Translations under genes and position numbers: made by a program | Shown: in pieces, positions 9,742-29,030 of the stretch | Layout: every line of letters starts with the position of its first letter | Numbering within the stretch: the stretch's first letter is position 1 | Origin: Candidatus Jacksonbacteria bacterium RIFOXYB2_FULL_44_15 | GTDB taxonomy: Bacteria > Patescibacteriota > Patescibacteriia > UBA9629 | Assembly: GCA_001818235.1 (NCBI GenBank) | Contig: MHJY01000029.1 | Span: 1 to 39,176 of the forward strand | Direction of reading: 5' to 3' | Length of the DNA: 39,176 nt | The notes under the pieces: generated by a model | Databases searched by the model: none | Seen by the model: the letters and a program-made list of their open reading frames with translations, nothing else | What the model was told of the DNA's origin: nothing

Positions 9742-11322
9742 TTAAATCCTTTTTTCTATAGCTAACGCCCTTTCTAACGACAATCTCTGAGAATTTCCTT
9801 TTATTGTTTTTTCTACGGCGCTTTCCGCCTTTGCTAATTGACCTCCAACTACTTGCTCGGCATCCGGCAATGACATAATCTTCTGCAAATTCTGCCAGTA
9901 TCCATAATTAGCGGTATTAACCTTTTTCGCATCCATATTCATAATTCTCCAATAATCTACACTCATCACCTGCACTAACTCTTTGGCTATCGCAGGTGTA
10001 TTATTGTACACCGATAATAATAATGCCCCTTCCAGCTCATTCAAATGCTCATCAATTATCCCATGTCCGGCCGTTAAGCCAGCGCGCGCTAACAATTGGC
10101 AAAGCTCTTTTACCTTTTCAGCACGTTTTTCTGGATCCAAATTTTGCTCATTTAGTTCTTTCACTTGCAACAGCATTCGTTGGCAATTTTTTTGAAACTG
10201 AATTTTGGCTTGTAACCGCGCAGGTTGCTCATTATAATGCTTCTTATCCTCAGTTAACTTAATAGTATTCATATCCACATAAATCGCACGCGTACCGTTA
10301 AAAAATTTCTCATGTTTGGCTGCCGCACGCTCTGTTTGTGTGGTAGTAAGCTCCTGCCATATTTTAATTATTGTCGCATCAGGAAAAATTTTCTCATCAC
10401 ATTCACCCGAATACTTAAAATCTATCAGGGACACCAAATCGACCTTATTATCACCATCCAAATCAACCATCAATTGTGCTTCATGTAAATCGTTATGATA
10501 AAAATCGTGGCTATGTAAAACAGCCAGCGTATTTGCTAGTACGTCTAAAATTTTCTTGTCTATTTCTGCCCCAACGAGCAACATCCGTTCTTTCAACTTT
10601 TCGCAATTTTCCCGATTAACTTCTGTCGCTTTAGTTGGGCCATGTTTTTCTGGCAATCCAGCAAATTTTAAAAAGTGTTGGATAGTTTGCTGTGTCGGCG
10701 GATCAAGCAAAAATTGCCGCCATCTTTCCTGATCCCAAGTTTCAATATTTTTATCTCCTAATCCCAGTTCGCGTTGTAAAACATCGTCTTTACATATTAA
10801 TTGGCGTAGCAAATAAGTTTTAAAATTCATTCCCGGAACATAATCCATCTCAATTACTTCCAATTGTCTACCTGCACTACCAAGGCTAGCGAGATTTGAA
10901 AAATTCTTTTTATCTGCTGAAATATCTGGAACGCTCGTGTTGAAACAAACTGTGACATCTGGAATATTAGCCAATTGTTTTTCGCCTGCATGGCTACTAA
11001 CTATCTTCTGCGCTTTCCGTTGCAATTGGGCTTCGGCCTGAGCACCGCCAAATTTGTACACTTTTAACATTTTTAAAACTTGTCTATCGTGATCTTCCTC
11101 AATGGTGTCAAGCAATCCGGCATCCAACAACTTCGCCTTAAGCGTTTCCGGCAATGACTGCAGGTCAAAAGACATAATTACCCCATCTTCGCCAGAATCC
11201 AAATAAGTTAAATACTGAAATATTTCCGCAAATAATTCCGGCGATACATCTTTTGTTTCGATGCGTTGAAATTCGCGTTCCCGAATGCCAACTTCTGAAA
11301 ATTTTGTTGTCTCTGGACCCAT
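9742..11322 (-). CDS. Large protein with kinase-fold (APH/RIO-like) centre, unknown function
   Basis: This 526-residue soluble protein contains a protein-kinase-like catalytic region. LEVIEMDYVPGMNFKTYLL (about 165-185) looks like the hinge, LAVLHSHDFYHNDLHEAQLMVD (about 290-312) carries the catalytic HxDLH pattern with Asp, and VSLIDFKYSG has the metal-binding Asp. The latter is IDF rather than DFG, as in aminoglycoside phosphotransferases and related small-molecule or atypical kinases. The glycine-rich loop is not obvious. A helical domain with many Gln/Lys/Glu and Leu residues follows (about 360-526). Catalytic residues suggest an active phosphotransferase; substrate unknown. It is divergent from amrB with a shared intergenic region. 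Confidence 0.7.
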   Translation of the reverse strand: MGPETTKFSEVGIREREFQRIETKDVSPELFAEIFQYLTYLDSGEDGVIMSFDLQSLPETLKAKLLDAGLLDTIEEDHDRQVLKMLKVYKFGGAQAEAQLQRKAQKIVSSHAGEKQLANIPDVTVCFNTSVPDISADKKNFSNLASLGSAGRQLEVIEMDYVPGMNFKTYLLRQLICKDDVLQRELGLGDKNIETWDQERWRQFLLDPPTQQTIQHFLKFAGLPEKHGPTKATEVNRENCEKLKERMLLVGAEIDKKILDVLANTLAVLHSHDFYHNDLHEAQLMVDLDGDNKVDLVSLIDFKYSGECDEKIFPDATIIKIWQELTTTQTERAAAKHEKFFNGTRAIYVDMNTIKLTEDKKHYNEQPARLQAKIQFQKNCQRMLLQVKELNEQNLDPEKRAEKVKELCQLLARAGLTAGHGIIDEHLNELEGALLLSVYNNTPAIAKELVQVMSVDYWRIMNMDAKKVNTANYGYWQNLQKIMSLPDAEQVVGGQLAKAESAVEKTIKGNSQRLSLERALAIEKRI

Positions 11323-11440: not shown

Positions 11441-12244
11441 ATGAATCTAAACAATTCCCGCCCTCCAGCCGTAGCCGGACAATTTTATCCTGATGATCGT
11501 AACGAGCTTTCGGCAATGATTGATGATTTTTTAGCTCAAGTTGAACCGAGAGCAATAAGTGATGTTGATCTTAAAAACTTACAGGCCTTGATTGTCCCGC
11601 ACGCCGGCTATCCGTTTTCCGGCCCAGTAGCCGCTTACGCCTATCAGCTTTTAAACCAATTGCCTAAAGACCCAAATTACCAAGTGATTCTGCTGGGGGT
11701 GTCTCATTTTACGGCGATTGATAATACTTATGCTGATACTCATGACTTCTGGCAAACTCCACTGGGAAACGTTCCAATTATCCCCCAAAATATCTTCCCT
11801 AAAAACAAAGCCTGCCATAGCCGCGAACACTCGCTGGAAGTGCAAATCCCCTGGCTGCAGAAAACCTTAAAAAACTTTAGCATTTTGCCATTCTTGACAA
11901 ATTTTGACGATCCTCGAGCGCTGGCAGAGCGCCTTTTGACGTTACTTCAAAAACCAAATACAATTTTGATTGTCAGCACTGATCTAAGCCACTACCTTCC
12001 CTATCCCTTGGCGAAAGCCACTGATCAGAAAACCATTAAATATATTCTGAATCTAAATGTCCAATTTTTGACGCCTGAACCAGAACGCGCTTGCGGTTTA
12101 AACGGTGTTTTAACGCTTCTGGAAATTTCCCGACAAAACAACTGGCAACCGCGACTACTCAAATACGCCAATTCCGGCGATACTTACGGCGACAAATCTC
12201 AAGTCGTTGGCTACGCCGCGCTGGTGTTTATTAAAACGGAATAA
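11441..12244 (+). CDS. amrB: AmmeMemoRadiSam system protein B (MEMO1 family)
   Basis: The 267-residue protein matches the MEMO family: RPPAVAGQFYP at the start, IVPHAGYPFSGPVAAYAY (about 50-67), VILLGVSHF, a histidine in EHSLEVQIPWLQ, and VSTDLSHYLPY. MEMO proteins have a fold related to class III extradiol dioxygenases and several conserved His residues able to bind metal. The three-gene AmmeMemoRadiSam set (amrA, amrB, amrS) is widespread in archaea and bacteria; I know of no settled reaction for it. The stop codon TAA at 12242-12244 coincides with the truncated end of a MITE-like repeat, so the element may have supplied or reset the terminus. The ATG at 11441 directly precedes the conserved N-terminus. 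Confidence 0.93.
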   Translation: MNLNNSRPPAVAGQFYPDDRNELSAMIDDFLAQVEPRAISDVDLKNLQALIVPHAGYPFSGPVAAYAYQLLNQLPKDPNYQVILLGVSHFTAIDNTYADTHDFWQTPLGNVPIIPQNIFPKNKACHSREHSLEVQIPWLQKTLKNFSILPFLTNFDDPRALAERLLTLLQKPNTILIVSTDLSHYLPYPLAKATDQKTIKYILNLNVQFLTPEPERACGLNGVLTLLEISRQNNWQPRLLKYANSGDTYGDKSQVVGYAALVFIKTE

Positions 12245-12423
12245 CGCGTTTATCGCTTATACTATTGTCATCCCAGACCGTCCGGTAATAAACAAAAACA
12301 CCAATTTGTCATCCCGAGCGAAGTCGAGGGATCCCTTATCTGCACCAAAAGCGATTCCTCGACTCCGCTTCGCTACGCTCGGAATGACAAAAAATAATTT
12401 TTGCGACAAACGCGTAAGTCCTA
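12243..12423. mobile_element. MITE-like element, copy a
   Basis: The right end carries the terminal repeat acgcgtaagtccta (12410-12423), and the left end begins with the truncated complementary end acgcgt directly at the amrB stop. Inside is a long hairpin, gtcatcccgagc pairing with gctcggaatgac (12308-12388). It has no coding capacity. Left-flank sequence (tatcgcttata, then accgtcc) recurs in copy d at the end of the window. It fills the amrB-amrA gap and ends four bases before the amrA ATG. Confidence 0.75.
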
Positions 12424-12427
12424 TATC

Positions 12428-12988
12428 ATGCTCACTCCCCAAGAACAACAATTCCTCCTCAATCTCGCCCGGCAAACAATTGAACATTACCTCAATACCG
12501 GTAAAATTGTTGATATTGATAAAGCTACCTTGCCCTCGCCGCGGCTACTACAAAAACAAGGCACTTTTGTCACGCTCCACACAAATCAAGGTGACCTGCG
12601 CGGCTGTATCGGCAATTTAGAAGGCACTGACGAACTGTACAAAGATATTGTTCACAACGCTTTTGGCGCCGCCTTTCATGATCCCCGCTTTTTGCCAGTT
12701 GAGCTTGATGAACTTCCGCAAATTCAAATCGAGATTTCGCTTTTGACTCCGCCACAGCCGCTTCCCTATCAAAACACCGCTGATTTATTAAATAAAATTA
12801 CGCCCGGCCGAGACGGCCTGATTCTCAAAAAAGACGGCCACACCGCCACCTTTCTTCCGCAAGTCTGGGAGGAATTGAATGATAAGCAGGACTTTTTAAC
12901 GCACCTCAGCCAAAAAGCCGGTCTATCATCCGATGCTTGGCGCGACGCGGAATTTTTTAGATATCAAGTAGAAAAATTCTCTGAGTAA
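12428..12988 (+). CDS. amrA: AmmeMemoRadiSam system protein A (AMMECR1 family)
   Basis: The 186-residue protein shows the AMMECR1 core. It has PSPRLLQKQGTFVTLHTNQG, the signature LRGCIGNLEGTDELYKDI, NAFGAAFHDPRFLPVELDEL, and the C-terminal EISLLTP, PGRDGLIL and TFLPQVWEEL segments. The family invariant LRGCIG is intact, with its central Cys. ATG at 12428 (MLTPQEQQFLL) is chosen; an in-frame start 27 bp upstream lies inside the MITE-like repeat. The gene is bracketed by repeat copies a and b, so its promoter or leader is now partly repeat DNA. Biochemical role unresolved; expected to act with amrB and amrS. Confidence 0.93.
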   Translation: MLTPQEQQFLLNLARQTIEHYLNTGKIVDIDKATLPSPRLLQKQGTFVTLHTNQGDLRGCIGNLEGTDELYKDIVHNAFGAAFHDPRFLPVELDELPQIQIEISLLTPPQPLPYQNTADLLNKITPGRDGLILKKDGHTATFLPQVWEELNDKQDFLTHLSQKAGLSSDAWRDAEFFRYQVEKFSE

Positions 12989-13025
12989 AAACACTACTAT
13001 TTAAACGCCACTCTATCCCAAAAAA

Positions 13026-13134
13026 GAGACGTCAATTTGTCATCCCGAGCGCAGTCGAGGGATCCCTTATTTAAGCCATAAAAGAGATTCCTCGACTCCC
13101 CCCTCGACACTGCTCGGGGTCCGCTCGGAATGAC
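13026..13134. mobile_element. MITE-like element, copy b (partial)
   Basis: The inner hairpin of the same family recurs: gtcatcccgagc at 13039 pairs with the end ggaatgac at 13134, and gtcgagggatcc pairs with gattcctcgac. The left flank (agacgtcaattt) is shared with copy d. The terminal repeats seen in copies a and c are absent, so this is a shortened or differently bounded copy. It fills the amrA-amrS gap. Confidence 0.65.
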
Positions 13135-13161
13135 AGTTGATCAACAGTTTTTCCACCATCA

Positions 13162-14184
13162 ATGCACCGCGCGACCCTTTACCAAAAACTTGCTTCTGAT
13201 CTTGTTAAATGCACCGCCTGTGCCCATTATTGCCATATCCAGCCAGATAACACCGGCGTTTGCGGCATCAGAAAAAACATCAAAGGCGAACTTTTTCTTC
13301 TCCCCTACGCCCGTCCAGCCGCCGTAAACATCGATCCAATCGAAAAAAAACCCTTGTTCCACTTCCTGCCAGGCACTCAAATCTTCTCGCTTGGCACGGT
13401 AGGCTGTAATTTCGCTTGTGCATTCTGCCAAAATTGGGATATCTCTCAACTATCCAAAGGAAAAGCAAAATTTGACCTAGAAAAATTGGGCGAAGACTGG
13501 CCGCCGCAAAAAATCGTTGACTATTGCCTTGAGCATAACATCCCCTCAATCGCTTATACCTATAACGAGCCGACAATTTTTATTGAATATGCCTATGATA
13601 CAGCCAAATTGGCAAACCAAGCCGGCTTAAAAAACGTTTTCGTCTCCAACGGTTATGGTTCCGCCGAAGCCTATGATTTTATTGACGGTTATCTTGATGC
13701 CATTAATATTGATCTAAAAAGTTTTCAGCCGGAGTTTTACCAAAAAATTTGCCATGCTAATATCAAACCAGTACTGGCTAACATCAAACGATTACATGAT
13801 GCCGGAGTTTGGGTAGAAGTGACGACTTTAGTCGTTCCCGGACAAAATGATTCCGTAGGTGAGCTCAAAGCTATCGCCCAATTCCTGGCCAAAATTGATC
13901 CAGATATCCCATGGCATATTTCCCGCTTTTTCCCGCAATATAAAATGGAAGACAGCCTGCCGACGCCGCTGGAAACTCTAGAGCTTGCCTACAAAATAGG
14001 CAAAACTGCCGGATTAAACTACGTTTACGTCGGCAATTGCCCTGATAGCAAATGGGAATCAACTGACTGTCCTAAATGCAAAAAAAGGCTAATTGAACGC
14101 ACCGGCTACGAAATTGGCACTATTAACCTCAAAAACGGCCAGTGCCAATTTTGTAAAACTAAAATCGCTGGAAAGTGGGAGTAA
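13162..14184 (+). CDS. amrS: AmmeMemoRadiSam system radical SAM enzyme
   Basis: A 340-residue radical S-adenosylmethionine enzyme. A Cys-rich N-terminus (KCTACAHYCHIQPDNTGVCGIR, about 16-38) precedes the radical SAM cluster motif CNFACAFCQNWDIS (CxxxCxxC, about 82-95). Later landmarks are the YNEPTIFIEYAYD segment, FVSNGY, DAINIDLKSF, TTLVVPGQND, WHISRFFPQYK, and a C-terminal zinc-ribbon-like set CPKCKKR ... CQFCKTK. The arrangement is that of the AmmeMemoRadiSam enzyme, a relative of pyruvate formate-lyase activases. ATG at 13162 gives the expected length. A terminator follows about 30 bp after the stop. Confidence 0.94.
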   Translation: MHRATLYQKLASDLVKCTACAHYCHIQPDNTGVCGIRKNIKGELFLLPYARPAAVNIDPIEKKPLFHFLPGTQIFSLGTVGCNFACAFCQNWDISQLSKGKAKFDLEKLGEDWPPQKIVDYCLEHNIPSIAYTYNEPTIFIEYAYDTAKLANQAGLKNVFVSNGYGSAEAYDFIDGYLDAINIDLKSFQPEFYQKICHANIKPVLANIKRLHDAGVWVEVTTLVVPGQNDSVGELKAIAQFLAKIDPDIPWHISRFFPQYKMEDSLPTPLETLELAYKIGKTAGLNYVYVGNCPDSKWESTDCPKCKKRLIERTGYEIGTINLKNGQCQFCKTKIAGKWE

Positions 14185-17702: not shown

Positions 17703-19061
17703 CTATTTATTTAAAAAATAAACTGGCGGGATCGGTTTAATAAAATTTTGAGCCAAAGAAAAAGTCAAACCGCCTTGGTTCGGCACTAAAATATAGTCGC
17801 CAAGTTTAATTTTCTTGGCAAAACAAGTATATCCCCATAAATCATCAGGCATGCAAAGCGACCCGTAAATGCAGGAACTTACCTCTCGGCGATCAGGGTT
17901 AGTTAAATTAATGAGCGGGAAATAATCATGCAAAAATCTTTCCCAACCTACTATATTAATACCGCCATCGGCAATAATTTTTTGCGGACTTTTTACGTCA
18001 ACCACCTGTAACATTACATGCATAGCGCCATTAGCAATAATTCGCCCAGGTTCAGTATAATAGACGCAATTCACCAGTGGCTGCAAATACTTTTTAATGG
18101 CCTGTCCAATGCCATACGCATAGCGATCAATTGGCACTGCGGCTGTTATATAATACTTATCTTTAAAATGCGACATTTGGCCTAAATGATCATCGACTGT
18201 CTTAATCAAACTGCCAGCCAATGTTCCCCAAGGATAATACCCTTCCGATAAATATGGCCGAAATCCACCGCCAAAATCGATAAATTTAATTGTCGCTAAC
18301 TCTGCTTTAGTAAACTTCTGGACCAAACATCCGGCCAATTCTTTAATTACCAGCGCATACGGCCGCGCATTTTCGTTCCAACTCATATGAAATTGAATTC
18401 CTTGCAGAGAAATACTCGGATATTCTTGAGATTTACGCCAAAATTCAGGTAACTCAGTTAAATCAATCCCAAATTTGTTCCAAACGTTGTGATAACGGGT
18501 AAAAATTCGAACACCCGCCCGCACAGAACGCCTTTTTTTACTGGCCACTTGATTCAATCGTGCCAATTCCTGAAAACTATCTAAATTAATAATCACTTTG
18601 TCACTATGAGAGACAGCCAACTCGAGCTCTGCCAGTGTCTTACCCGGGCCACTAAAGACCAGCTTTTTCGCCCCACAGCGCAGAGCAATCATTAATTCAC
18701 GGCCGCTGGAAATATCTATTCCAAAACCGTGCGCTACTGCACGTTTTATTATATAAGGATGATGATTAACTTTCATCGCGTAATAATACTCACATCCTGG
18801 CAAGTGCTGATCAAAAGCCGCGGTAAACGCTTTAAGACCCATCTCTAATGCTGGCTTATCAAGAATATAGAAAGGAGTAGTATGTTTGCGAGCCAAAGCC
18901 AGAAATGATGCCTTTCTGGCAAGGAACTGCTCAACCAAAGATAATAATTCACCTTTCAAAACAGGAGTTTTTTGACTCAAAAGTTTATCAATAATACGAC
19001 GATAGCGCCGAAGTTGCGACGCATCCATTAGTTGTATTTTTTGCAAGCTAATATTATTCAT
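17703..19061 (-). CDS. Fold-type III PLP amino acid decarboxylase (Orn/DAP/Arg decarboxylase 2 family)
   Basis: A 452-residue enzyme of the alanine-racemase-like decarboxylase group. The PLP lysine is Lys97 in YYYAMKVNHH. The His that stacks on the cofactor is His225 in GIQFHMSWN (families usually show HxGSQ). The phosphate-binding glycine loop is FIDFGGGF (264-267), followed by YYTEPGR (337-340) and the catalytic Cys403 in CIYGSLCMPDD. The aromatic residue usual in the C-terminal GAY motif is replaced (GGLTFS). An extra helical segment of about 60 residues precedes the barrel, as in DAP-type or carrier-bound-substrate decarboxylases. Natural substrate unknown. Start ATG 19061 lies just after the stop of the preceding gene; an in-frame TTG 18 bp upstream would overlap it. 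Last gene of the biosynthetic operon, so it may decarboxylate the final product or a precursor. Confidence 0.85.
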   Translation of the reverse strand: MNNISLQKIQLMDASQLRRYRRIIDKLLSQKTPVLKGELLSLVEQFLARKASFLALARKHTTPFYILDKPALEMGLKAFTAAFDQHLPGCEYYYAMKVNHHPYIIKRAVAHGFGIDISSGRELMIALRCGAKKLVFSGPGKTLAELELAVSHSDKVIINLDSFQELARLNQVASKKRRSVRAGVRIFTRYHNVWNKFGIDLTELPEFWRKSQEYPSISLQGIQFHMSWNENARPYALVIKELAGCLVQKFTKAELATIKFIDFGGGFRPYLSEGYYPWGTLAGSLIKTVDDHLGQMSHFKDKYYITAAVPIDRYAYGIGQAIKKYLQPLVNCVYYTEPGRIIANGAMHVMLQVVDVKSPQKIIADGGINIVGWERFLHDYFPLINLTNPDRREVSSCIYGSLCMPDDLWGYTCFAKKIKLGDYILVPNQGGLTFSLAQNFIKPIPPVYFLNK

Positions 19062-19065
19062 ATGA

Positions 19066-20460
19066 TTATTTATTAACAATAAATTCTCTTAATTCTTCTT
19101 GAAAAATATTTAATACTTTGTCCTTTAATCTCAGAGGGATAGTTTCAGTCGGCTGAATCCCAAGATATCTTTTTGTTAAATAGTCCTTTTGACGCGCAAT
19201 TTTGCGTAATAATGATTTTTTAAAACGCTCTATACTATAGCCTTGACACCCTCGCTGATAGGCTAAATAAAAAGCTAACCCTAACTCTTCCTGGGAACCA
19301 TACGCCGGGGCTTGGGGATTATAATGAAAAAAATGATCATAAATCTGAGCATGCGCAGAGTCAAATAAATTTGCCGTAAAACCTAAGCCAGCCAAATCAA
19401 ACCCAAAGGCAGCACATAATGCGTAGATATAGCCACATTTCACGCAACTTTGGCACCAACGATTATTTTTTGCCCGAGAATTATCTGCCATGCATGACAT
19501 CTGAAATCGACCATTGGCCGAATAACGATTGTGCAAAATTTTAACAATTGCCAATTCATAAAGAGGGTCCATAAAACTTATAACCTCTACCTTCCTACCC
19601 AGCATCAATGAGGCTAAAAGACTTTGTTGCGGTGTCCAATCATGATGCTGATCATAGGCTGCCTTATAAGTTAACACGCCTTCGCTATCAAAAAAAATGT
19701 CATTACACGACTGCTCATTCCCCAGTAATATGTAATCAGCGTTAAAATAATGAACAAAAGGCAGACACATTAAAGCATATTCTGTCGTTTGCAGTCCCCA
19801 TCCTAAATCAGTCTGCAAACCCCAACGTTTACCATAGCGAAATATACCTGGTTCATAAAAAATAGTATAAACTGATCTTTGTCTTTCCTTTTTAAATCGC
19901 GCCATCAGTCTTTTCTTGTGAAAATATTCAAAGTCATTGGCCGGCTCAATAAAATTAACCAAAATTGGCCGCAACCCTAGTTCCTCGCAAAGACTCAAAC
20001 TCAGCAAGCTCTCCTTACCGAAAGAAAAAGGAATAATCACTGTTTGTTTTTTTTGCTGGGATTGCTGAAACTTAACGCTGTCCGGCGTTTTAATCCGTTC
20101 ATCAGCAAATTTCGGCTGTATATTATAAAAATCTTTGACATATTGAATAGAAGAACGTCCGTCGGCAATCGCGCAAGTCGGGGCATCGTTAATGCCATTC
20201 TTAAACAAAAAAGCTTCCGACAAAGGACGAGCTGTTTGATAGTTGATCTCCTTGATTTGTAAAATTTGCGGCAAAAATAAAGTCGCACTATATGCCAGGT
20301 TGTCTTTTAAAATTTCCTGATGCTCTTGGGGAAAAGCTTGCCACACCTCCTTGGGATATATTATTCGATAAGGTTCTTTATTCACAATAACATCCACTCC
20401 ATTAGTGGTAACCTTCGCGCGAATATTTAGCTCAGTTGGTTTTTTGGATGCCGAAATCAT
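19066..20460 (-). CDS. MurL-like PP-loop protein, paralog A
   Basis: The 464-residue protein has the architecture I associate with MurL, the ATP-dependent epimerase of the terminal L-Glu in UDP-MurNAc-L-Ala-L-Glu. It has an N-terminal beta-rich region with NLAYSATLFLPQI and NYQTARPLSEAFLFKN, a PP-loop FSFGKES (145-151), GNEQSCND (247-254), an acidic/His segment AYDQHHDWTPQQ (268-279), MDPLYELAIVKILH, and a possible metal-binding set Cys323, Cys336, Cys339, Cys342 (FQMSC ... WCQSCVKC). The match is by pattern memory, not a search, so epimerase activity is a hypothesis; adenylation of a carboxylate is the safer inference. Its paralog is at 23950-25359. It shares an ATGA overlap with the ATP-grasp gene upstream. 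Confidence 0.65.
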   Translation of the reverse strand: MISASKKPTELNIRAKVTTNGVDVIVNKEPYRIIYPKEVWQAFPQEHQEILKDNLAYSATLFLPQILQIKEINYQTARPLSEAFLFKNGINDAPTCAIADGRSSIQYVKDFYNIQPKFADERIKTPDSVKFQQSQQKKQTVIIPFSFGKESLLSLSLCEELGLRPILVNFIEPANDFEYFHKKRLMARFKKERQRSVYTIFYEPGIFRYGKRWGLQTDLGWGLQTTEYALMCLPFVHYFNADYILLGNEQSCNDIFFDSEGVLTYKAAYDQHHDWTPQQSLLASLMLGRKVEVISFMDPLYELAIVKILHNRYSANGRFQMSCMADNSRAKNNRWCQSCVKCGYIYALCAAFGFDLAGLGFTANLFDSAHAQIYDHFFHYNPQAPAYGSQEELGLAFYLAYQRGCQGYSIERFKKSLLRKIARQKDYLTKRYLGIQPTETIPLRLKDKVLNIFQEELREFIVNK

Positions 20461-21794
20461 AAATTTAATTTATTGTTGTTTTTATTGGCCAAAAACATTT
20501 CGCGAAAATACGACCAGATTTCTTTCCCTGCCTGATTCAATTCTCCACTTTCCAAATCAAACACCGGAAAATTGCTCAAAATCGTACATAAAGTAGCACC
20601 CCGCTTCAAAGCGGATATCTGCCTTAACTCATGAAAAAGTAAAAAATAATCAGGATGGTTAAAAAAAATTTTCATCCGCTGACCGACAAACTTAACGCGA
20701 CCATTTTTAAAACTATACACACCAACCGGCAAAATTTGCTTCAGCGATCCTGTCGCAGCCAAATCGATGTCCAATAATGAACCCGTAAAATCAGATACAG
20801 GCAACCGCCTATCACTAATTGTTAATTGTTGCTTATCCCAAAAAGTATCCAGAAAAAACTGCCAAGGATTCGGATTAGTAGCCAAGGATAATCCGGCAAA
20901 AATGTGAGGCGTAGCTGAAGATAATCGTGGATTGCATTCCAAAACTAAAGCTTTTTCTTGACTAATCAAAATATCAACATTTGCTACCCCATAAAAGTTT
21001 TCTTTCTGGAGTAATTTAGTTAAATGCTCTAATTGAGTAGAAATGCTACTGAGTGTCTTCGAGCCAAAAAAATTAGCCGGTAACCATTGAATGCCCGAAA
21101 AAATACTAGGAAAACCATTTTTATTCAAAAAACACTGACGACGTAGCCCGGCATAAAAATAATTGCCCGCTTTATCTAAAAAAATTGTTACCCCGATTGG
21201 CACGCCTGGAAGATATTCTCTAACTAAATAAGACGAGACTTGACGGAGATGTTTTTTCCTAAAAGCCGATAAATCTGACGCCGACATAAATTTCGTCCCA
21301 AATAACCCATAGCTACCGCTCTTTTGTACAACATATGATTTGTGGTTAACTTTCTCTAAATCCCTTCCGGCCAAATTAACAGTAGGCGGAGATGCCAGTC
21401 GGTATTTTTTTAGTAGATTATCAAAATAAATTTTATCCTCGAGTCTTTTTTGCGTTGACCAAGGGGTAACCATCAGTTCAATGCCTCGTTTTTTAGCCCA
21501 CTGCTCAATAAAAATGGAACTACGATGAGGCACCACTAAATATTTGATCTGCTGGGCCACCAGCTGTTCCCCTAAATTTGTCTTCGCCAATATCTCGGCA
21601 AAAGTCAGTGGTTCTTCGCACGCCGCCTGTGCTTTAAAATAGATCAGCTTTTGACAGGAAAAATTAGCAACCGCAAATTCGGCCAATGGAGTTTGCTCTT
21701 GAACCAAAATCGAACATTGAAACAAATGCTTAGCAGTAAAAAAAACCGGTTCTATGGCGTTGATAACAATCGCCGCTTTAAATTTTGTTTGCAT
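20457..21794 (-). CDS. ATP-grasp family carboxylate-amine ligase
   Basis: A 445-residue ATP-grasp enzyme. After a pre-ATP-grasp Rossmann region (about 1-110) comes the lid and nucleotide domain: DKIYFDNLLKKYRLASPPTV, YVVQKSGSYGLFGTKFMS (the phosphate-contacting loop), SYLVREYLPGVPIGVTIFLD, and the metal-binding end YGVANVDILISQ ... ALVLECNPRLSSATPHIF. A C-terminal domain of about 130 residues follows. Such enzymes make an acyl phosphate from a carboxylate and join it to an amine; the substrates here are unknown. The 5' end overlaps the DegT-like gene by 17 bp and the 3' end overlaps the MurL-like gene as ATGA, so translation is probably coupled. Confidence 0.82.
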   Translation of the reverse strand: MQTKFKAAIVINAIEPVFFTAKHLFQCSILVQEQTPLAEFAVANFSCQKLIYFKAQAACEEPLTFAEILAKTNLGEQLVAQQIKYLVVPHRSSIFIEQWAKKRGIELMVTPWSTQKRLEDKIYFDNLLKKYRLASPPTVNLAGRDLEKVNHKSYVVQKSGSYGLFGTKFMSASDLSAFRKKHLRQVSSYLVREYLPGVPIGVTIFLDKAGNYFYAGLRRQCFLNKNGFPSIFSGIQWLPANFFGSKTLSSISTQLEHLTKLLQKENFYGVANVDILISQEKALVLECNPRLSSATPHIFAGLSLATNPNPWQFFLDTFWDKQQLTISDRRLPVSDFTGSLLDIDLAATGSLKQILPVGVYSFKNGRVKFVGQRMKIFFNHPDYFLLFHELRQISALKRGATLCTILSNFPVFDLESGELNQAGKEIWSYFREMFLANKNNNKLNL

Positions 21795-22896
21795 CGTGTA
21801 AACGGTTTTGACTGCTTAAAAAAAATGCAATCTCTTGGCAAATCAAGATAACATCCTCTTTTTTAATCAACCAGTGAACCGGTAAAATAATAAATGATTG
21901 ATAAAAACCGTGGTCTATTTGCGCATCTTGGAATGTTGGCGTTTCCCATAGCATATCAGCAAAAATATTCTTCTCCTCCAGATAAGTAATTAAATTAACT
22001 TGAATTTTCGGTTCAACAAATAGCGGGTAATAAATCCATTCTCCTGCTTTAACCACTTCGTCAGCTAAAACTTTAAGCAATGGACTTTTAATCGTTTTTA
22101 ACTGCCGATTATACATTTCTGCCATTTCCTTTTGATGCTGTCTGACTTTCCTTAAATTAATAAATTTATACAGTTCAAAGGAAAAACGACTGCCGCGGGT
22201 CGGTCGCGAAAAAGATCCAATTAGTTGATCGTGATGTAAAAAAACATCGCTACTTCTCTCATACAACCAGGGTGATCGCCCCAAATAGGCGGCCAATGAC
22301 AGCCCCCCCTGGATTAAATGCAACAAATAGCATCGCAACTTATACCAATTAAACCTAGTAGATAAATGGTCCGCGGGTGGTAAATTACCAATCAAGTGAC
22401 TGCCTTGCAATGGTGAGTGCTTCCGAATACTGGTAACATAGAAATGATTCGGCCCAAGCTCTGGGAGATCTTCGGGAATGATAATGCGATGGGCGCAGTC
22501 TTCGATAATAACCGTCGAATCTGCACCTAAAGCTTTGCACCTAACTAATTCTTCTGATGTCAAACTCAAACCACTAAAGCTATAATTAATTATTACCCGG
22601 GGCCGAAATTTAGCAACTTGCTCAAAATAGGACGCTTTATTAATGGAAAAATCACGATTGATTTGATATAAAACTACGGTAGCGACCTGGCTTAAAAATC
22701 GCAAAGTGTCCGGACAGTAAAATGCCGGTACCAATATTTTATCCTCAACCCCAATCTTATAATGAAGGAAAATATATCGCAACGTGTCAGTAAAACTCAA
22801 AAAAAAATGCTCAGAAGTTGTTAAAATCATTCCCTTTTTACTTGATAACGGCTGCAAAATATAAGGCCTAACAAATCCTAGTAATTTCCGTCTCAT
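21778..22896 (-). CDS. DegT/DnrJ-like fold-type I PLP protein, divergent
   Basis: The 372-residue protein looks like a member of the DegT/DnrJ/EryC1/StrS aminotransferase family. It has a substrate strand with KILVPAFYCPDTLRFLS, VIINYSFSG, VIIEDCAHRI (the Asp that pairs with the pyridine nitrogen, plus His), and YVTSIRKHSPLQGSHLIGN, where the Lys in RKHSPLQG is the expected Schiff-base residue. The C-terminal domain has YYPLFVE and ILPVHW segments typical of the small domain. The usual glycine-rich GEGG after the lysine is replaced by LQGSHL, so substrate or reaction may differ (aminotransferase, dehydratase or amide-forming variant). It lies 8 bp after the epimerase gene and overlaps the ATP-grasp gene. 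Confidence 0.7.
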   Translation of the reverse strand: MRRKLLGFVRPYILQPLSSKKGMILTTSEHFFLSFTDTLRYIFLHYKIGVEDKILVPAFYCPDTLRFLSQVATVVLYQINRDFSINKASYFEQVAKFRPRVIINYSFSGLSLTSEELVRCKALGADSTVIIEDCAHRIIIPEDLPELGPNHFYVTSIRKHSPLQGSHLIGNLPPADHLSTRFNWYKLRCYLLHLIQGGLSLAAYLGRSPWLYERSSDVFLHHDQLIGSFSRPTRGSRFSFELYKFINLRKVRQHQKEMAEMYNRQLKTIKSPLLKVLADEVVKAGEWIYYPLFVEPKIQVNLITYLEEKNIFADMLWETPTFQDAQIDHGFYQSFIILPVHWLIKKEDVILICQEIAFFLSSQNRLHDANKI

Positions 22897-22904
22897 ATTG
22901 TAAA

Positions 22905-23957
22905 TTAAATGATTAAACGTAAAGGTCCAGCAATACTAATCCCGCCACGCCTAAACCTTGCACCTCCTCGCGCCGGCTCTTTCGGAAAATCCAAATGTCC
23001 GCTATCCAAATCAACATAATCAATCGGTAAAGCAAGCGCTAAAGAAGCAGCGGTGGTAATCGAAATGTTTGATTCATAGGTGCATCCAATCATCACAATT
23101 TTCCCTAGACTCCTGGCCAAATGGTAAATTTTTAAAGCATTTATCGGACCACCACATTTTATCAGCTTAATATTAACACCATTGATATAATTACCTATAA
23201 GTAGCCGGCTGGACTGCTCCACGCTCACCGCCGCTTCATCTGCAATAATCGGAATAGCGGTTAATTGTTGTAACCTTTTTAACGACTCGATGTCTTTAGC
23301 AGCCACTGGCTGTTCAATCAGACATACCGGAAAATTTTTTATTTTTCGCAAAAATAATTCCGTTTGCCGATAACTATAGCCTTGATTCAAATCAATCAAT
23401 AATTTAGCTTGAGATGGCAAAATCTTACTGACAGCCTGAATCCGCGCGCAGTCATCATTCCAATCCAAACCGCCTTTTAATTTAATCAGACGATATCCCT
23501 GCCGCAATCGCTCTTTTACCGACCGAACAGTAGCAGGCAAACTTTTAAGGCAAACTGTTATCGAAATCGGACAACTACGACGATAGCCGCCGAAAAGTTC
23601 TACCAGAGTAATGCCTTTTTTCTGGCAAAAAAGATTAAGCACTGCTTCCTCTATGGCCGACTGGACAGCTGGCAGACCGGCGAACTCGTCCTGAATCAGC
23701 TCGTGATAGTGATACCAAAATTCCATCGGCCAGCAAAAAAAATCAACCGACAATTTCTCTTTAAGTGCAACGTCCGCAGCTTCCAGTGACTCGCCAGTCA
23801 CTGCTTCGTCAACCGCGACACTCCCGAGACCAAAATTGCCATCTTTATCAATAATCTTAATATAAATAATTTCCGCACTATCCACTTCTTCGTAGGTGAC
23901 TTTAAAGGTCTCCGGTAAATATAAACGCCGCTTGTAAAAAAAAACCTTACTAATCAT
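22905..23957 (-). CDS. Dipeptide epimerase (enolase superfamily, MR/MLE group)
   Basis: A 350-residue enolase-superfamily enzyme with all catalytic positions in order. The KxK motif is Lys159/Lys161 (IKLKGG). Metal ligands are Asp189 (LIDLNQGYS), Glu215 (LIEQPV) and Asp240 (IIADEAA), and the opposite base is Lys264 (VNIKLIKCGG). GCTYESNISITTAA and the DxD pair Asp316/Asp318 (YVDLDSG) follow. In L-Ala-D/L-Glu epimerases this DxD binds the free amino group of a dipeptide, which supports a dipeptide substrate over mandelate- or muconate-type acids. In E. coli the enzyme serves murein recycling. Here it is embedded among ligases and probably has a biosynthetic role. It overlaps the upstream gene by 8 bp. 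Confidence 0.88.
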   Translation of the reverse strand: MISKVFFYKRRLYLPETFKVTYEEVDSAEIIYIKIIDKDGNFGLGSVAVDEAVTGESLEAADVALKEKLSVDFFCWPMEFWYHYHELIQDEFAGLPAVQSAIEEAVLNLFCQKKGITLVELFGGYRRSCPISITVCLKSLPATVRSVKERLRQGYRLIKLKGGLDWNDDCARIQAVSKILPSQAKLLIDLNQGYSYRQTELFLRKIKNFPVCLIEQPVAAKDIESLKRLQQLTAIPIIADEAAVSVEQSSRLLIGNYINGVNIKLIKCGGPINALKIYHLARSLGKIVMIGCTYESNISITTAASLALALPIDYVDLDSGHLDFPKEPARGGARFRRGGISIAGPLRLII

Positions 23958-25359
23958 GGGGCAAAAACTCTTTTAGCTCTTCGCGAAAAATCTGCAAAAC
24001 TTTATCTTTAATTTCACCAGGAATAACGGAAGTAGGGTGGATGCCCAAATATTTTTGGGTTAACTGGCCAATCCGACCGACGATCAGCGGCAATAGCTTA
24101 GTTCTAAAACGTTCTAGAGTATAACCATGGCAACCATGAAGGGTTGCTAAATAAAGCGATAACTCTGTTTCCTCATCACAATAACTCGTAAGCGGTATCA
24201 GAGGATCAGACTGAAACAATAAAGACCTATAAATCGGATAATGGGCACGGTCAAATAAATTAAGAGTAAAACCTACCTTTTTAAAATCAAACCCAAAAGC
24301 CGATAAGTAAGCAAACATTTCTACGCATTTAGAGCAACTCTGACACCAACGACGCTGTCTCGCCTTATCATTATCGGCTAGACAGGACATTTGGAAACGA
24401 GCAATATCCGAATAGCGATGATGTAAAATTTTTGTAATTGCCAGTTCATAAAGAGGGTCCACAAGACTTCCCACTTCTAATCGCCGCCCCAACAAAAGCG
24501 ACGCCAATAATGCTTGCTGTGGTGTCCAATCATGATGTTGATCGTAAGCGGCAATAAATGTTAATAAACCTTCGGTATTAATAAAGCTCTCGCTACATTG
24601 CTGTTCATTGCCCAACAATAAATAATCAGCTTTAAAATAATGGGCAAACGGTAACATTAATAAGACATAATCAGTGGTATGCAACCCCCAACCTAAATCA
24701 GTGTTAAGATTCCAATGGCGCCCGGACCGAAATATCCCTGGCTGATAATGCATTATATGAATATCTTGCCCGGTGGCTAATTTAAACTCTTTAATTAATT
24801 TCTTTTTGTGGTGGTACTCATAAGTATTGGCCGGCTCGACGCAGTAAATTAAAATTGGACGAACGCCAATCTCTTTACATAAGCTCATTGTTAAAAGACT
24901 TTTTTTGCCAAAGCAAAAAGGAACAAGTGCGGTTCTTTTCTTTCTTAACGTCTTTTTGAAATGAATGGTTGATGGAACTTTAATCCGCGCGGAAGCAAAA
25001 ATAAACTGAGTGTTGAAAAAACTTTTTAAATAAGATACCGACGACTGTTTATCATCAATCGCACTAATCGAGGTATCATAAATCGCATTTTTAAATAAAA
25101 AGACTTCGGATAAAGGACGCGCCGTTTGATAGGTAATTTCCCCCAGACCTAACATTTGGGGTAGAAAAATTGTTGCACTATAAGCAAGATTATCCATTAA
25201 GATTTCCTTAGCTGATTGCGGATAAGCCTGCCAAATTTCTTTTGGATATGTAATCGGGAAATGTTCTTGATTAACTATAATATCCAAACCTCGTGTAGTA
25301 AGTTTAGCGCGAACATTAAGTTCCAACGGTCGAACAACATGTGTCTTTTTTTTATTCAT
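23950..25359 (-). CDS. MurL-like PP-loop protein, paralog B
   Basis: The 469-residue paralog of the 19066-20460 product; by eye roughly half of the positions are identical along the whole length. Landmarks are NLAYSATIFLPQM, YQTARPLSEVFLFKN, the PP-loop position FCFGKKS (148-154), LLGNEQQC, AYDQHHDWTPQQ (271-282), VDPLYELAITKILHHRY, and Cys326/339/342/345 (FQMSC ... WCQSCSKC). The PP-loop carries Lys where paralog A has Glu and standard PP-loops have Asp, so B may differ in activity or form a heteromer with A. ATG at 25359 has a GGAG Shine-Dalgarno 8 nt upstream. This gene starts the tightly packed six-gene run; a gatA relic lies just upstream. Confidence 0.65.
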   Translation of the reverse strand: MNKKKTHVVRPLELNVRAKLTTRGLDIIVNQEHFPITYPKEIWQAYPQSAKEILMDNLAYSATIFLPQMLGLGEITYQTARPLSEVFLFKNAIYDTSISAIDDKQSSVSYLKSFFNTQFIFASARIKVPSTIHFKKTLRKKRTALVPFCFGKKSLLTMSLCKEIGVRPILIYCVEPANTYEYHHKKKLIKEFKLATGQDIHIMHYQPGIFRSGRHWNLNTDLGWGLHTTDYVLLMLPFAHYFKADYLLLGNEQQCSESFINTEGLLTFIAAYDQHHDWTPQQALLASLLLGRRLEVGSLVDPLYELAITKILHHRYSDIARFQMSCLADNDKARQRRWCQSCSKCVEMFAYLSAFGFDFKKVGFTLNLFDRAHYPIYRSLLFQSDPLIPLTSYCDEETELSLYLATLHGCHGYTLERFRTKLLPLIVGRIGQLTQKYLGIHPTSVIPGEIKDKVLQIFREELKEFLPHD

Positions 25360-25611: not shown

Positions 25612-26508
25612 TTAAAATATAGAGAATGTATATGTAGTATAAAATAAATTCGGATGAAATTTCAATTTAAATGCCAAAAGACTTTTTTCGCTACCGCCAA
25701 GATCCACTTTCTGATAGCCTTTTTTTTTTAATTCAGCCAATTCATCTAGATAAGAAACTTCACCGATATCCGAACAATCATAGTCATAGATACCTACACA
25801 AGAATAATAATCACTGCTGTTGGGAATAGCCCAACCAGCGTTGACAGAGACCGGTCTACCGTTTATCAAAATAACCCGTGAAAAATCAAACCCCCTGAAA
25901 CCATCTTCTATAAAATTTAAATACTGCTTTAAATAAACTCTGTCAGAATTTTTCCGTTGTTTTTTCCATTTCAAAATGAGGTCCACTAGATCTGACTTAT
26001 TTACCTGCGCGACACTTTTGAATTGCGCCTCGTTATTTTTAAAAAATTTATTGCGCATATTGCGCATCCTTTTCCAAATTTTGCTTTCCAATTTTTCGTT
26101 CCAATTTTTAAGCTCAATCAATGGCCATGTAAAAACGTAACTCGGCTTGATGGTTTTGAAACCTAAACCCTTCGCTTCTTTAAAAATTTCCTCCTTTAGA
26201 CTTTCAGTTATATCTTCTAAAATCACCTTGTCAAAATTTTCTTGCTTAAGCGCCCACTCAAGTAATTCAGTGATAACGGCAAGCTTTTTTTGTGGAGAGG
26301 ATACCGGATCAGTAAGTATTCTTAAAGTTTTACCCTTTTCGTAAGCCAAAATTCCGCCACGGTCGCTAAAATCGAAAAAAATTGGTTTTTCTCCGGGCAT
26401 TGCGTAGTTTAAATAAAACCAATAATTATGTTGGGACAAATGACCATAATTGTGAATAATTTCCCGAATATTGAGGCTATCTTTTTCGATATTTCTATTT
26501 ATTTTCAT
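25612..26508 (-). CDS. FemAB/GNAT-like (DUF2156-type) aminoacyltransferase
   Basis: The 298-residue protein resembles the acyltransferase domain of phosphatidylglycerol lysyltransferase C-terminal regions (DUF2156) and FemABX enzymes: a GNAT-like double fold with IFFDFSDRGGILAYEKGKTLRILTDPVS, a second half beginning WKRMRNMRNKFFKNN, then FSRVILINGRPVSVNAGWAIPNSSDYYSCVGIYDYD, LAELKKKGYQKVDLGGSEKSLLAFKLKFHP. FemABX and LPG synthase use aminoacyl-tRNA as donor to add amino acids to muropeptides or lipids, so this protein is a candidate for a tRNA-dependent aminoacyl step. No membrane helices are seen. It lies between the double ATP-grasp gene (95 bp away) and the gatA relic. Confidence 0.65.
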   Translation of the reverse strand: MKINRNIEKDSLNIREIIHNYGHLSQHNYWFYLNYAMPGEKPIFFDFSDRGGILAYEKGKTLRILTDPVSSPQKKLAVITELLEWALKQENFDKVILEDITESLKEEIFKEAKGLGFKTIKPSYVFTWPLIELKNWNEKLESKIWKRMRNMRNKFFKNNEAQFKSVAQVNKSDLVDLILKWKKQRKNSDRVYLKQYLNFIEDGFRGFDFSRVILINGRPVSVNAGWAIPNSSDYYSCVGIYDYDCSDIGEVSYLDELAELKKKGYQKVDLGGSEKSLLAFKLKFHPNLFYTTYTFSIF

Positions 26509-26603: not shown

Positions 26604-29030
26604 TCATTTTACAGTGGCCTGCAGATGATAATAAGGTGGACGGCCTTGGTAGCGTTTAATCGCCATTGAAATGATATCCTCGAGTAAATCACCATAGCGC
26701 AACCCGACTAATTTCGCCGAGGAGGGCATCCCATCATTCTCGCCGATTGAGGGATTCGGATTCAACTCCAAAACATAAGGGTTTTCGTCTTTGTCCACTC
26801 TAATTTCTATCCGACCATAGTCATGACAATCCAAAATATTATAAGTATCTAAGGCAATTTCGGAAATTAACGACTCCAATTTTTTGCTAATATTTTTGGC
26901 CGGCAGCTGAATAATAATTTTATCGAATGCAGGATCATTTTCGTATTTAATGCTAAAAGAATATATATGCCAAATACCCGACGGCACTTCCGAAAAAATT
27001 GATCTCTGTAGTGGTAACACCCGCAAATCCTCTGCTTCGCTTCCTAAAATAGAAACATCATACTCATCGCCCTCGATATATTCTTCAACTAATGCCGGCC
27101 GACCAAGATCGTGGATTACTTTTTTAAGTTGACTTTTAAGTTCAACCGGATTAGTTACAATCGAATCGTTAGTTATTCCAATCGAATCATCGGTATTACC
27201 AGGTTTGACAATCAAAGGATACTGTAACTCATCACTAATTTTATCATCGAGATAATATGCGTAATCCCATTTAGGAGTAGGAATTCCGTGGTAAGTCAAA
27301 AGTTTTTTAACTCTAATTTTATCCAGTGATAAAGCCAAAGTAAATGGATTGGAACCGGTATAAGGAATCTGTAAAATATCAAAAATTGACGCCACATGTG
27401 GTTCAAGGAGGCTAGAATCATTAATTCGCTCACACACATTAAAAACCAAATCTACATTACTTTTTATTAGTTGATTTATTGCCTGCTGAACATTATTAAA
27501 ATCGAAAAAAGTGACGCGATAACCGCGCTCTTTTAGCACCTGCTGAATGCGCTGCCCAATGGACGTTAATTCTCCTTCTACGACGCCGGTTTGATTTTCT
27601 GGATAAATATTACAAGCGATACCAATATGCAAGTTACGCTGATCCTTAAGTGACACACGACGGATTCTTTCAATTTTAGCCGCACCAGTAACCAATGATT
27701 TATTTAAAGCGGCATAGGAAAAACGATTCTTTCGCAAAGTCTTGCCCAAAAACGATGTAGAATCAAACTTAGCTACTTCGAATTTGACATACTTCATAAT
27801 ATTTTCTAGATTATCTTGAGCGTCTAAAAGATTCTCACCGGAAACGGTTACCCAACCTAGATACTCATAACCTTCCGGCGGCACCAACACTGGATCACCC
27901 ACTTTTTTATAAAAATGGAACTCCTCTAACCGAGGGTGCTTTTTTAACTTCTCATCAATATCCAGTTTCACAATAATTCCTGAATAATCAGATAAAAAAT
28001 CGCTACCAGTTAAGTACTGCCGCGGCACATCTGGCCTAATAATTTTGGGCAAATATTGTCCTAAAGCAATGCGCGTCGCCTCCTCAACAAAATCAACATT
28101 CCAAACACTTTTCATAAATGAATAAACCTCATCACCGCCCATCCGCAAATTAATCTCAATCGGTACTGGTCCGTTTTTAGTTGACTTGGCTTCGAATTGA
28201 ATACAGCCATGCTGAACCCCTAATTTCTCCAGTGTTTCCTCCGCCATCGCTATCAAATCCTGCTTGGCCCGCAATGGGAGACTAGATGGAATGGAAAATC
28301 CTGTCTCTATAAAAAATGGCTCTTTGGTACGCGCATTGTCGGTAATTGAATAAAATTTAACCTTACCATTCTGGAGTAGCATATCAATGTCAACTTCGTC
28401 ACCATCAATATATTCTTCCACTAATACTTCTAAACTATCCCATTCGGCTGAATCAGGATGGCTAGTGATATTATTTTTGATGTAGTTATAAGTTTCTAAC
28501 AATTCCCCTTGATTTTCTACTTTAACCACAAAAGCGCTACTCGAACCATAAATAGGTTTAATAACTAAAGGAAAATTTAATTCGCCATCTGTAGTTTTTA
28601 AATCATCTAGCTTTTGAATCAATTTAAAGTTTGGCGTCGGCAATCCCTGCTGTTTACAAAATTGCCTAAATTTATTTTTATCACGAACGCGTTTGGCAAC
28701 AGTATATGGAATTCCGGTAAAATTAAAAGCGTCCACTATTTTCGCCGTTAAAAGGACACTCTCTTCCCAAAAAGTTAGCGCTCCCTCTATCTTAATTTGC
28801 GAATTACTCTTGATAAAGGACCGTAAGGCGGCAATACTTTCTTGATAATTATTTGTATCCGCTAAAATCCAGGAATCCACATAAGTGGCTGCCCAATTTT
28901 TTTCTTTATGGAGCATGATGATGTTAATGCCCAGGCTCTTTAGCTTTTTAAAAATAAACCGTTTTTTTATCGAACCGGTATGAACGACGAGAATAGTTTT
29001 ATTAGTGAAACCATTATTATGATTGGACAT
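26604..29030 (-). CDS. Bimodular ATP-grasp ligase (carnosine-synthase/BacD-like plus Ddl-like)
   Basis: An 808-residue fusion of two ATP-grasp enzymes. Module 1 (about 10-430) begins with a Rossmann-like pre-domain and has GIPYTVAKRVRDKNKFRQFC, LVIKPIYGSSSAFVVKV, EVLVEEYIDGDEVDIDMLL and the metal site IQFEAKSTKNGPVPIEINLRMGGDE, plus a beta extension, as in L-amino acid ligases and carnosine synthases. Module 2 (about 455-808) resembles D-Ala-D-Ala ligase: IGIACNIYPENQTGVVEGE, DLVFNVCER, the IPYTGSNPFTLALSLDKIRVK segment, PLIVKPGNTDDSIGI, LVEEYIEGDEYDVSILG and the terminal YVLELNPNPSIGENDGMPSSA. Two active-looking modules in one chain could make two successive amide bonds. It is the first gene after the promoter at 29160 and presumably starts the pathway. 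Confidence 0.85.
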   Translation of the reverse strand: MSNHNNGFTNKTILVVHTGSIKKRFIFKKLKSLGINIIMLHKEKNWAATYVDSWILADTNNYQESIAALRSFIKSNSQIKIEGALTFWEESVLLTAKIVDAFNFTGIPYTVAKRVRDKNKFRQFCKQQGLPTPNFKLIQKLDDLKTTDGELNFPLVIKPIYGSSSAFVVKVENQGELLETYNYIKNNITSHPDSAEWDSLEVLVEEYIDGDEVDIDMLLQNGKVKFYSITDNARTKEPFFIETGFSIPSSLPLRAKQDLIAMAEETLEKLGVQHGCIQFEAKSTKNGPVPIEINLRMGGDEVYSFMKSVWNVDFVEEATRIALGQYLPKIIRPDVPRQYLTGSDFLSDYSGIIVKLDIDEKLKKHPRLEEFHFYKKVGDPVLVPPEGYEYLGWVTVSGENLLDAQDNLENIMKYVKFEVAKFDSTSFLGKTLRKNRFSYAALNKSLVTGAAKIERIRRVSLKDQRNLHIGIACNIYPENQTGVVEGELTSIGQRIQQVLKERGYRVTFFDFNNVQQAINQLIKSNVDLVFNVCERINDSSLLEPHVASIFDILQIPYTGSNPFTLALSLDKIRVKKLLTYHGIPTPKWDYAYYLDDKISDELQYPLIVKPGNTDDSIGITNDSIVTNPVELKSQLKKVIHDLGRPALVEEYIEGDEYDVSILGSEAEDLRVLPLQRSIFSEVPSGIWHIYSFSIKYENDPAFDKIIIQLPAKNISKKLESLISEIALDTYNILDCHDYGRIEIRVDKDENPYVLELNPNPSIGENDGMPSSAKLVGLRYGDLLEDIISMAIKRYQGRPPYYHLQATVK

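Follow-up and report, generated by a model that had tools for sequence, protein, structure and literature searches.

We describe two paralogous genes, A and B, which encode MurL-like PP-loop enzymes in an operon of Candidatus Jacksonbacteria bacterium RIFOXYB2_FULL_44_15 (Patescibacteriota), a bacterium with a tiny genome. The operon appears suited to assembling a small non-ribosomal peptide and editing its stereochemistry, and not to making cell wall. The window, i.e., the whole stretch of DNA analysed, comprises 39,176 nucleotides of contig MHJY01000029.1 (assembly GCA_001818235.1). We suggest that A activates the C-terminal carboxylate of a small peptide by adenylation, followed by inversion and hydrolysis, within an ATP-grasp-based non-ribosomal peptide pathway, and that B is a neofunctionalised copy or a partner subunit. 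To this statement as a whole we assign a probability of about one half; its core, carboxylate activation by a QueC-type fold in a small-peptide pathway, is held with more confidence. Homology, motifs, predicted folds, the gene duplication and the conserved gene cassette were computed, and from these we infer the substrate, the reaction, the order of steps and the role of B.

Two paralogues under selection

The two genes lie as follows (ORF, open reading frame; aa, amino acids):

19066..20460, minus strand: MurL-like PP-loop enzyme A; ORF of 464 aa, PP-loop FGKES at residues 147-151, Q271, C323/C336/C339/C342
23950..25359, minus strand: MurL-like PP-loop paralogue B; ORF of 469 aa, PP-loop FGKKS at residues 150-154, Q274, C326/C339/C342/C345

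BLASTP finds 264 identical residues of 457 (58%) and 75% positives between A and B, in line with an earlier estimate, made by a sequence-only reading of this DNA, that about half of the residues are shared. Both proteins contain DQHHDWTPQQ and a four-Cys cluster, as that reading had it, the cluster having the form SCx(n)WCxxCxxC, and the PP-loop centres it gave, GKES and GKKS, are read in the ORFs in the contexts SFGKES (A) and CFGKKS (B), the latter confirmed by the codons GGC AAA AAA AGT. Over 464 codons A and B differ 140, 123 and 251 times at codon positions 1, 2 and 3, respectively, and different codons are used at 135 of the 265 identical residues. Hence, as judged from the codon pattern, both copies are under purifying selection.

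Remote kinship to MurL

MurL consumes ATP, releases AMP and inverts the L-Glu at the C-terminus of a peptide in one direction only; adenylation of the α-carboxylate has been proposed, and the enzyme is described as having no known conserved domains and an unclear mechanism (PMC8788868, PMC5808125). The sole NCBIfam match of A and B is the MurL model NF041275 (E 1.4e-6 and 4.2e-6), which also matches 19 of 25 relatives, and Pfam returns nothing for A or B at E 0.1, PF06508 (QueC) included. For comparison, five MurL relatives were fetched from gammaproteobacterial genomes, two of which exceed the MurL cut-off. They share the core GGGKDS ... SNER ... NHQxSK ... SCNxxF ... WCxxCxKC, with GGGIGS in place of the loop in one of them (L095). 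Profile-profile comparison (hhalign) of the Patescibacteria set with these five gives a probability of 98.5% and E 2e-15 over 300 columns and superposes the PP-loop, the NE motif and the Cys cluster RWCxxCxKC, with which alignment A4 agrees. In the alignment the Gln271 region of A falls opposite the NHQ region of MurL, and the four Cys are invariant in 63/63 relatives as well as in the aligned MurLs.

A and B are thus colinear with MurL (Xanthomonas XOO_1319) over about 300 residues and share with it the PP-loop Lys and Ser, the NE motif, the Gln of the DQ/NHQ region and SCx(n)WCxxCxKC. Unlike MurL, they carry GK[E/K]S instead of GGGKDS, they score 27.1 (A) and 25.5 bits (B) against a curated NF041275 cut-off of 700, and they occur as two copies among ATP-grasp ligases, a dipeptide epimerase and a decarboxylase. 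No Mur ligase (murD2) neighbour was found among the operon proteins tested against Pfam and NCBIfam. By these profiles A and B are genuinely, if remotely, homologous to MurL and stand outside the curated family: the earlier label "MurL-like" holds for kinship, and not for membership.

Predicted fold

The AlphaFold2 model of A has a mean predicted local distance difference test (pLDDT) of 90.7 and a predicted template modelling score (pTM) of 0.91. In Foldseek its top solved structures are QatC (E 4.7e-5), QueC (7.2e-4) and Cap9 (1e-3), with probability 1.00 for QatC and QueC. With the model of a genuine MurL (pLDDT 84), whose underlying alignment included A, B and their relatives, QueC ranks first and Cap9 fourth. 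Sequence searches gave no convincing solved relative for A or for MurL. The models point to a QueC-type carboxylate-activating PP-loop ATPase fold with a four-Cys site in both A and genuine MurL, a fold which fits the proposed MurL adenylation and backs the carboxyl-activating enzyme type put forward from sequence. In the literature library searched, no paper connecting MurL with QueC was found.

QueC enzymes have an SGGxDS loop and the zinc motif Cx8CxxCxxC (PMC13329287), and in QatC the loop Ser-Asp-Ser coordinates the β and γ phosphates of ATP (PMC13279940). A shares with QueC, QatC and Cap9 (PF06508) the PP-loop and, in sequence, a Cys x(n) CxxCxxC site. It differs from them, as does B, in lacking a PF06508 sequence match and in having SGGxDS altered to SFGKES or CFGKKS; the long N- and C-terminal extensions, and a predicted substrate that is a peptide carboxylate rather than 7-carboxy-7-deazaguanine, set A and B apart from QueC. 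The tRNA thiolases, named earlier as a family whose recovery would speak against a MurL-type enzyme, rank below QueC, QatC and Cap9, with TtuA (TtuA/NcsA) at a Foldseek E of 0.02 and an hmmsearch E of 0.4, and find no support as the identity of A and B.

The same fold leaves room for another chemistry. A and B may, in the manner of QueC, form an amide or a nitrile (or ligate) and so modify the C-terminal carboxylate of a peptide with no epimerisation: the nearest solved folds are QatC, QueC and Cap9, and in other enzymes with this fold a carboxylate is first activated and then receives nitrogen or a peptide amine (PMC13279940, PMC13329287). We consider this rather unlikely, as the sequence homology is to MurL and not to PF06508, the Gln271 region aligns with the MurL NHQ region, and a second peptide epimerase is encoded within the same operon.

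Duplication and the PP-loop acid

A and B are sisters in the tree (SH-like approximate likelihood-ratio test, 99), with end branches of 0.24 and 0.50, respectively; by this phylogeny the pair arose by a duplication specific to its lineage. Judged by branch length, B has evolved at about twice the rate of A, and the relative-rate counts with outgroup L026 are 78 for B versus 37 for A (P 1.7e-4).

The acid of the PP-loop is Asp or Glu in all aligned homologues (about 65, with later matches about 70 in total) except B. Most of the loci were fetched with a pattern that requires D or E at this position; the homologues gathered free of this bias, and the second copies in L041, L042, L045 and L100/L106, likewise have D or E. 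No second Lys-loop copy was found in the sample of the order or of the phylum. All Glu-loop homologues fall within one Patescibacteria clade of 20 tree rows, A and B included, so that the Glu of A is an inherited state and the Lys of B a new one. Thus, of the earlier remark that both loops lack the typical Asp, the part on A comes down to an ordinary trait of the clade, and the part on B stands, with a Lys seen in one of about 70 homologues.

This Lys lies a single base from Glu (GAA>AAA), inside a run of seven A, which raises the question whether B is a decaying copy, or its Lys an assembly error, with A alone at work. A one-base change in an A-rich run and the faster evolution of B are what such an explanation expects. 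The codon pattern of purifying selection argues against it, as does the retention of the near-invariant family positions, since among the 22 listed B departs at one (Phe>Leu). B also stands in the slot that the single copy holds in relatives (L026, L030, L028), between the double ATP-grasp and epimerase genes. We therefore regard decay or error as unlikely, and a partner or neofunctionalised copy as more likely.

Other altered loops and other pairs were seen among the relatives. The gammaproteobacterial MurL homologue L095:1-1380 (plus strand), with a MurD-like ORF adjacent, has lost both the usual Lys and Asp in its GGGIGS loop and is a second natural altered-loop case. Further MurL-like pairs, divergent or convergent, occur in Gottesmanbacteria L041 and L045 and in genome G757 (L100/L106), and a tandem pair in Woesearchaeota contig L042, all with Asp in both loops.

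The operon and its cassette

In addition to A and B, the operon comprises:

26604..29030, minus strand: double ATP-grasp protein, 808 aa; N half ATP-grasp plus L-amino-acid-ligase domain LAL_C2, C half D-Ala-D-Ala-ligase-like
25612..26508, minus strand: GNAT-fold protein, 298 aa; LPG_synthase_C / Acetyltransf_6-like
22905..23957, minus strand: enolase-superfamily dipeptide epimerase with KxK and DxD motifs; shares 8 bases with the end of B
21778..22896, minus strand: DegT/DnrJ/EryC1/StrS-type pyridoxal phosphate (PLP) enzyme, 372 aa; weak Pfam match
20457..21794, minus strand: ATP-grasp ligase of 445 aa; shares 4 bases with the start of A
17703..19079, minus strand: fold-type III PLP decarboxylase-like protein (LysA/FslC-type); YAMK, EPGR and LCMPDD motifs; start codon uncertain, either the TTG at 19079 or an ATG further on

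Read downstream along the minus strand, the gene order is double ATP-grasp, GNAT-like, B, epimerase, DegT-like, ATP-grasp, A and LysA-like decarboxylase, and the ORFs overlap or almost touch from B through the decarboxylase. The cassette recurs with a single MurL-like gene in L014, L025, L026 and L028, and in part in many other Patescibacteria loci. In a class sample of 381 genomes MurL-like genes are present in 12, double ATP-grasp genes in 27 and both in 10 (Fisher P 3e-11). By gene content and order the operon of the window is a variant of this recurrent Patescibacteria cassette, whose members are the fused amino-acid-ligase/Ddl-like ATP-grasp protein, a MurL-like protein, the dipeptide epimerase, the DegT-like enzyme, the ATP-grasp ligase and the LysA-like decarboxylase.

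The KxK, metal-ligand and DxD motifs of the epimerase are kept in 10/10 aligned sequences, and the YAxK, EPGR and LCxxxD-type motifs of the decarboxylase in nearly all. The DxD of enolase-type dipeptide epimerases binds the free N-terminus of the dipeptide. The window epimerase, of putative dipeptide specificity, resembles L-Ala-D/L-Glu epimerase in its KxK and DxD motifs and its NF041118 match, but at 164.6 bits it scores under the model cut-off of 500. The 808-aa protein combines the domain types of L-amino-acid ligases and D-Ala-D-Ala ligase; unlike these, it is a fusion, and the genome has a canonical ddl besides it.

The kinship with MurL (NF041275, hhalign) could mean that the MurL-like genes supply D-Glu for murein. 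MurD-like, Alr and Ddl genes are present in the genome of the window (canonical Alr and Ddl elsewhere, on contig C10), and MurI was not detected there, an absence that is weak evidence in a genome 92% complete. Across genomes the distribution of MurI, MurD, Alr and Ddl weakens such a general role. MurI exceeds its cut-off in 9 of the 12 genomes with a MurL-like gene, and in two genomes (G245, G251) none of MurI, MurD, Alr and canonical Ddl exceeds its cut-off, although a MurL-like gene lies beside a double ATP-grasp gene in each. A genome of the same family as that of the window (G020) has neither MurI nor a MurL-like gene, though MurD is present. No murD2 was found among the operon proteins tested, whereas an ORF that looks MurD-like from the beginning of its sequence adjoins the genuine MurLs L092, L094 and L095. 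Another source of D-Glu is also possible, with several D-amino-acid-aminotransferase-like genes in G000, all below cut-off. Supply of murein D-Glu is hence very unlikely in our view: the frequent presence of MurI and MurD in cassette genomes, together with the cassette in two genomes apparently devoid of the murein pathway, indicate that the cassette is probably not for murein synthesis.

Several loci (L076, L079-L082, L084) have a double ATP-grasp gene with no MurL-like gene nearby, often with a GNAT-family gene alongside; the GNAT of the window was considered as a counterpart of these and was rejected, as no similarity was detected. Carriage by phage or plasmid was likewise rejected, with no relative found in viral contigs or plasmids. 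In several loci a seryl-tRNA synthetase gene lies near the MurL-like gene, namely the ORFs L048:8544-9902 (assigned by Pfam) and L047:8691-9956, L050:8709-9983, L041:5554-6897 and L038:307-1527 (by clustering); those of L047 and L050 run a few bases into the MurL-like gene. In Spirochaetales L037:4751-7275 a PALP-family PLP enzyme gene is followed by a MurL-like gene and a single Ddl-like gene. Elsewhere in the window, Memo, AMMECR1 and radical-SAM genes stand in a row at 11441-14184, and in L016/L040 and L085 AMMECR1 and radical-SAM genes likewise lie upstream of the gene for the double ATP-grasp protein. The ORFs at 1881-3482 (533 aa) and 9742-11322 (526 aa) have no Pfam match at E 0.001.

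Proposed mechanism

By analogy with MurL, we propose ATP-dependent chemistry on a peptide C-terminus for A and B, as follows.

Step 1: Ligation of amino acids, which we place first, would be the task of the double ATP-grasp protein together with the 445-aa ligase. The enolase-type epimerase would then act on the free dipeptide.

Step 2: A would bind ATP and adenylate the C-terminal carboxylate of the peptide, with AMP/pyrophosphate chemistry as in MurL. Adenylation would acidify the α-proton, so that the L-residue is irreversibly inverted and the adenylate hydrolysed. Epimerisation of the activated residue is thus, by this analogy, probably the activity of A.

Step 3: The LysA-like enzyme would remove a carboxyl from a residue or from a building block.

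Besides the fold, the duplicate B has retained the Cys site, Gln274 and both the Lys and the Ser of the PP-loop. With the PP-loop acid changed to Lys, it most likely handles ATP differently, either as a non-adenylating partner of A or with a changed nucleotide or substrate requirement. The three readings offered earlier for the pair (two substrates, an active/inactive dimer, new carboxyl-activation chemistry) are all compatible with these results. Tentatively, A and B might assemble into a heteromer of QueC-type fold that adenylates peptide carboxyl groups; the Lys-loop B would then have lost or changed its nucleotide chemistry and would take another catalytic or a substrate-holding role, in an undescribed Patescibacteria pathway that leads to a small peptide with a D-residue, possibly decarboxylated.

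Several points weigh against the proposal of peptide-carboxylate activation and inversion by A with B as partner or neofunctionalised copy. A and B score very low against the MurL model. The Foldseek E-values are modest and the template modelling scores low overall (0.3-0.4 of the query), that is, only a core is shared. In relatives of QueC such activation leads to an amide or a nitrile, and amidation could therefore take the place of epimerisation. The higher rate of B reaches significance with only three of the five outgroups, and its Lys, a one-base change in the seven-A run, could still be an assembly error.

MurL, together with a larger family in Patescibacteria, archaea and bacteria, would be placed by the QueC-type fold within a testable catalytic model, and in the B copy nature provides a test of the need for the PP-loop acid. 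The recurrent cassette is a candidate pathway for small peptides in a bacterial group of which very little chemistry is known.
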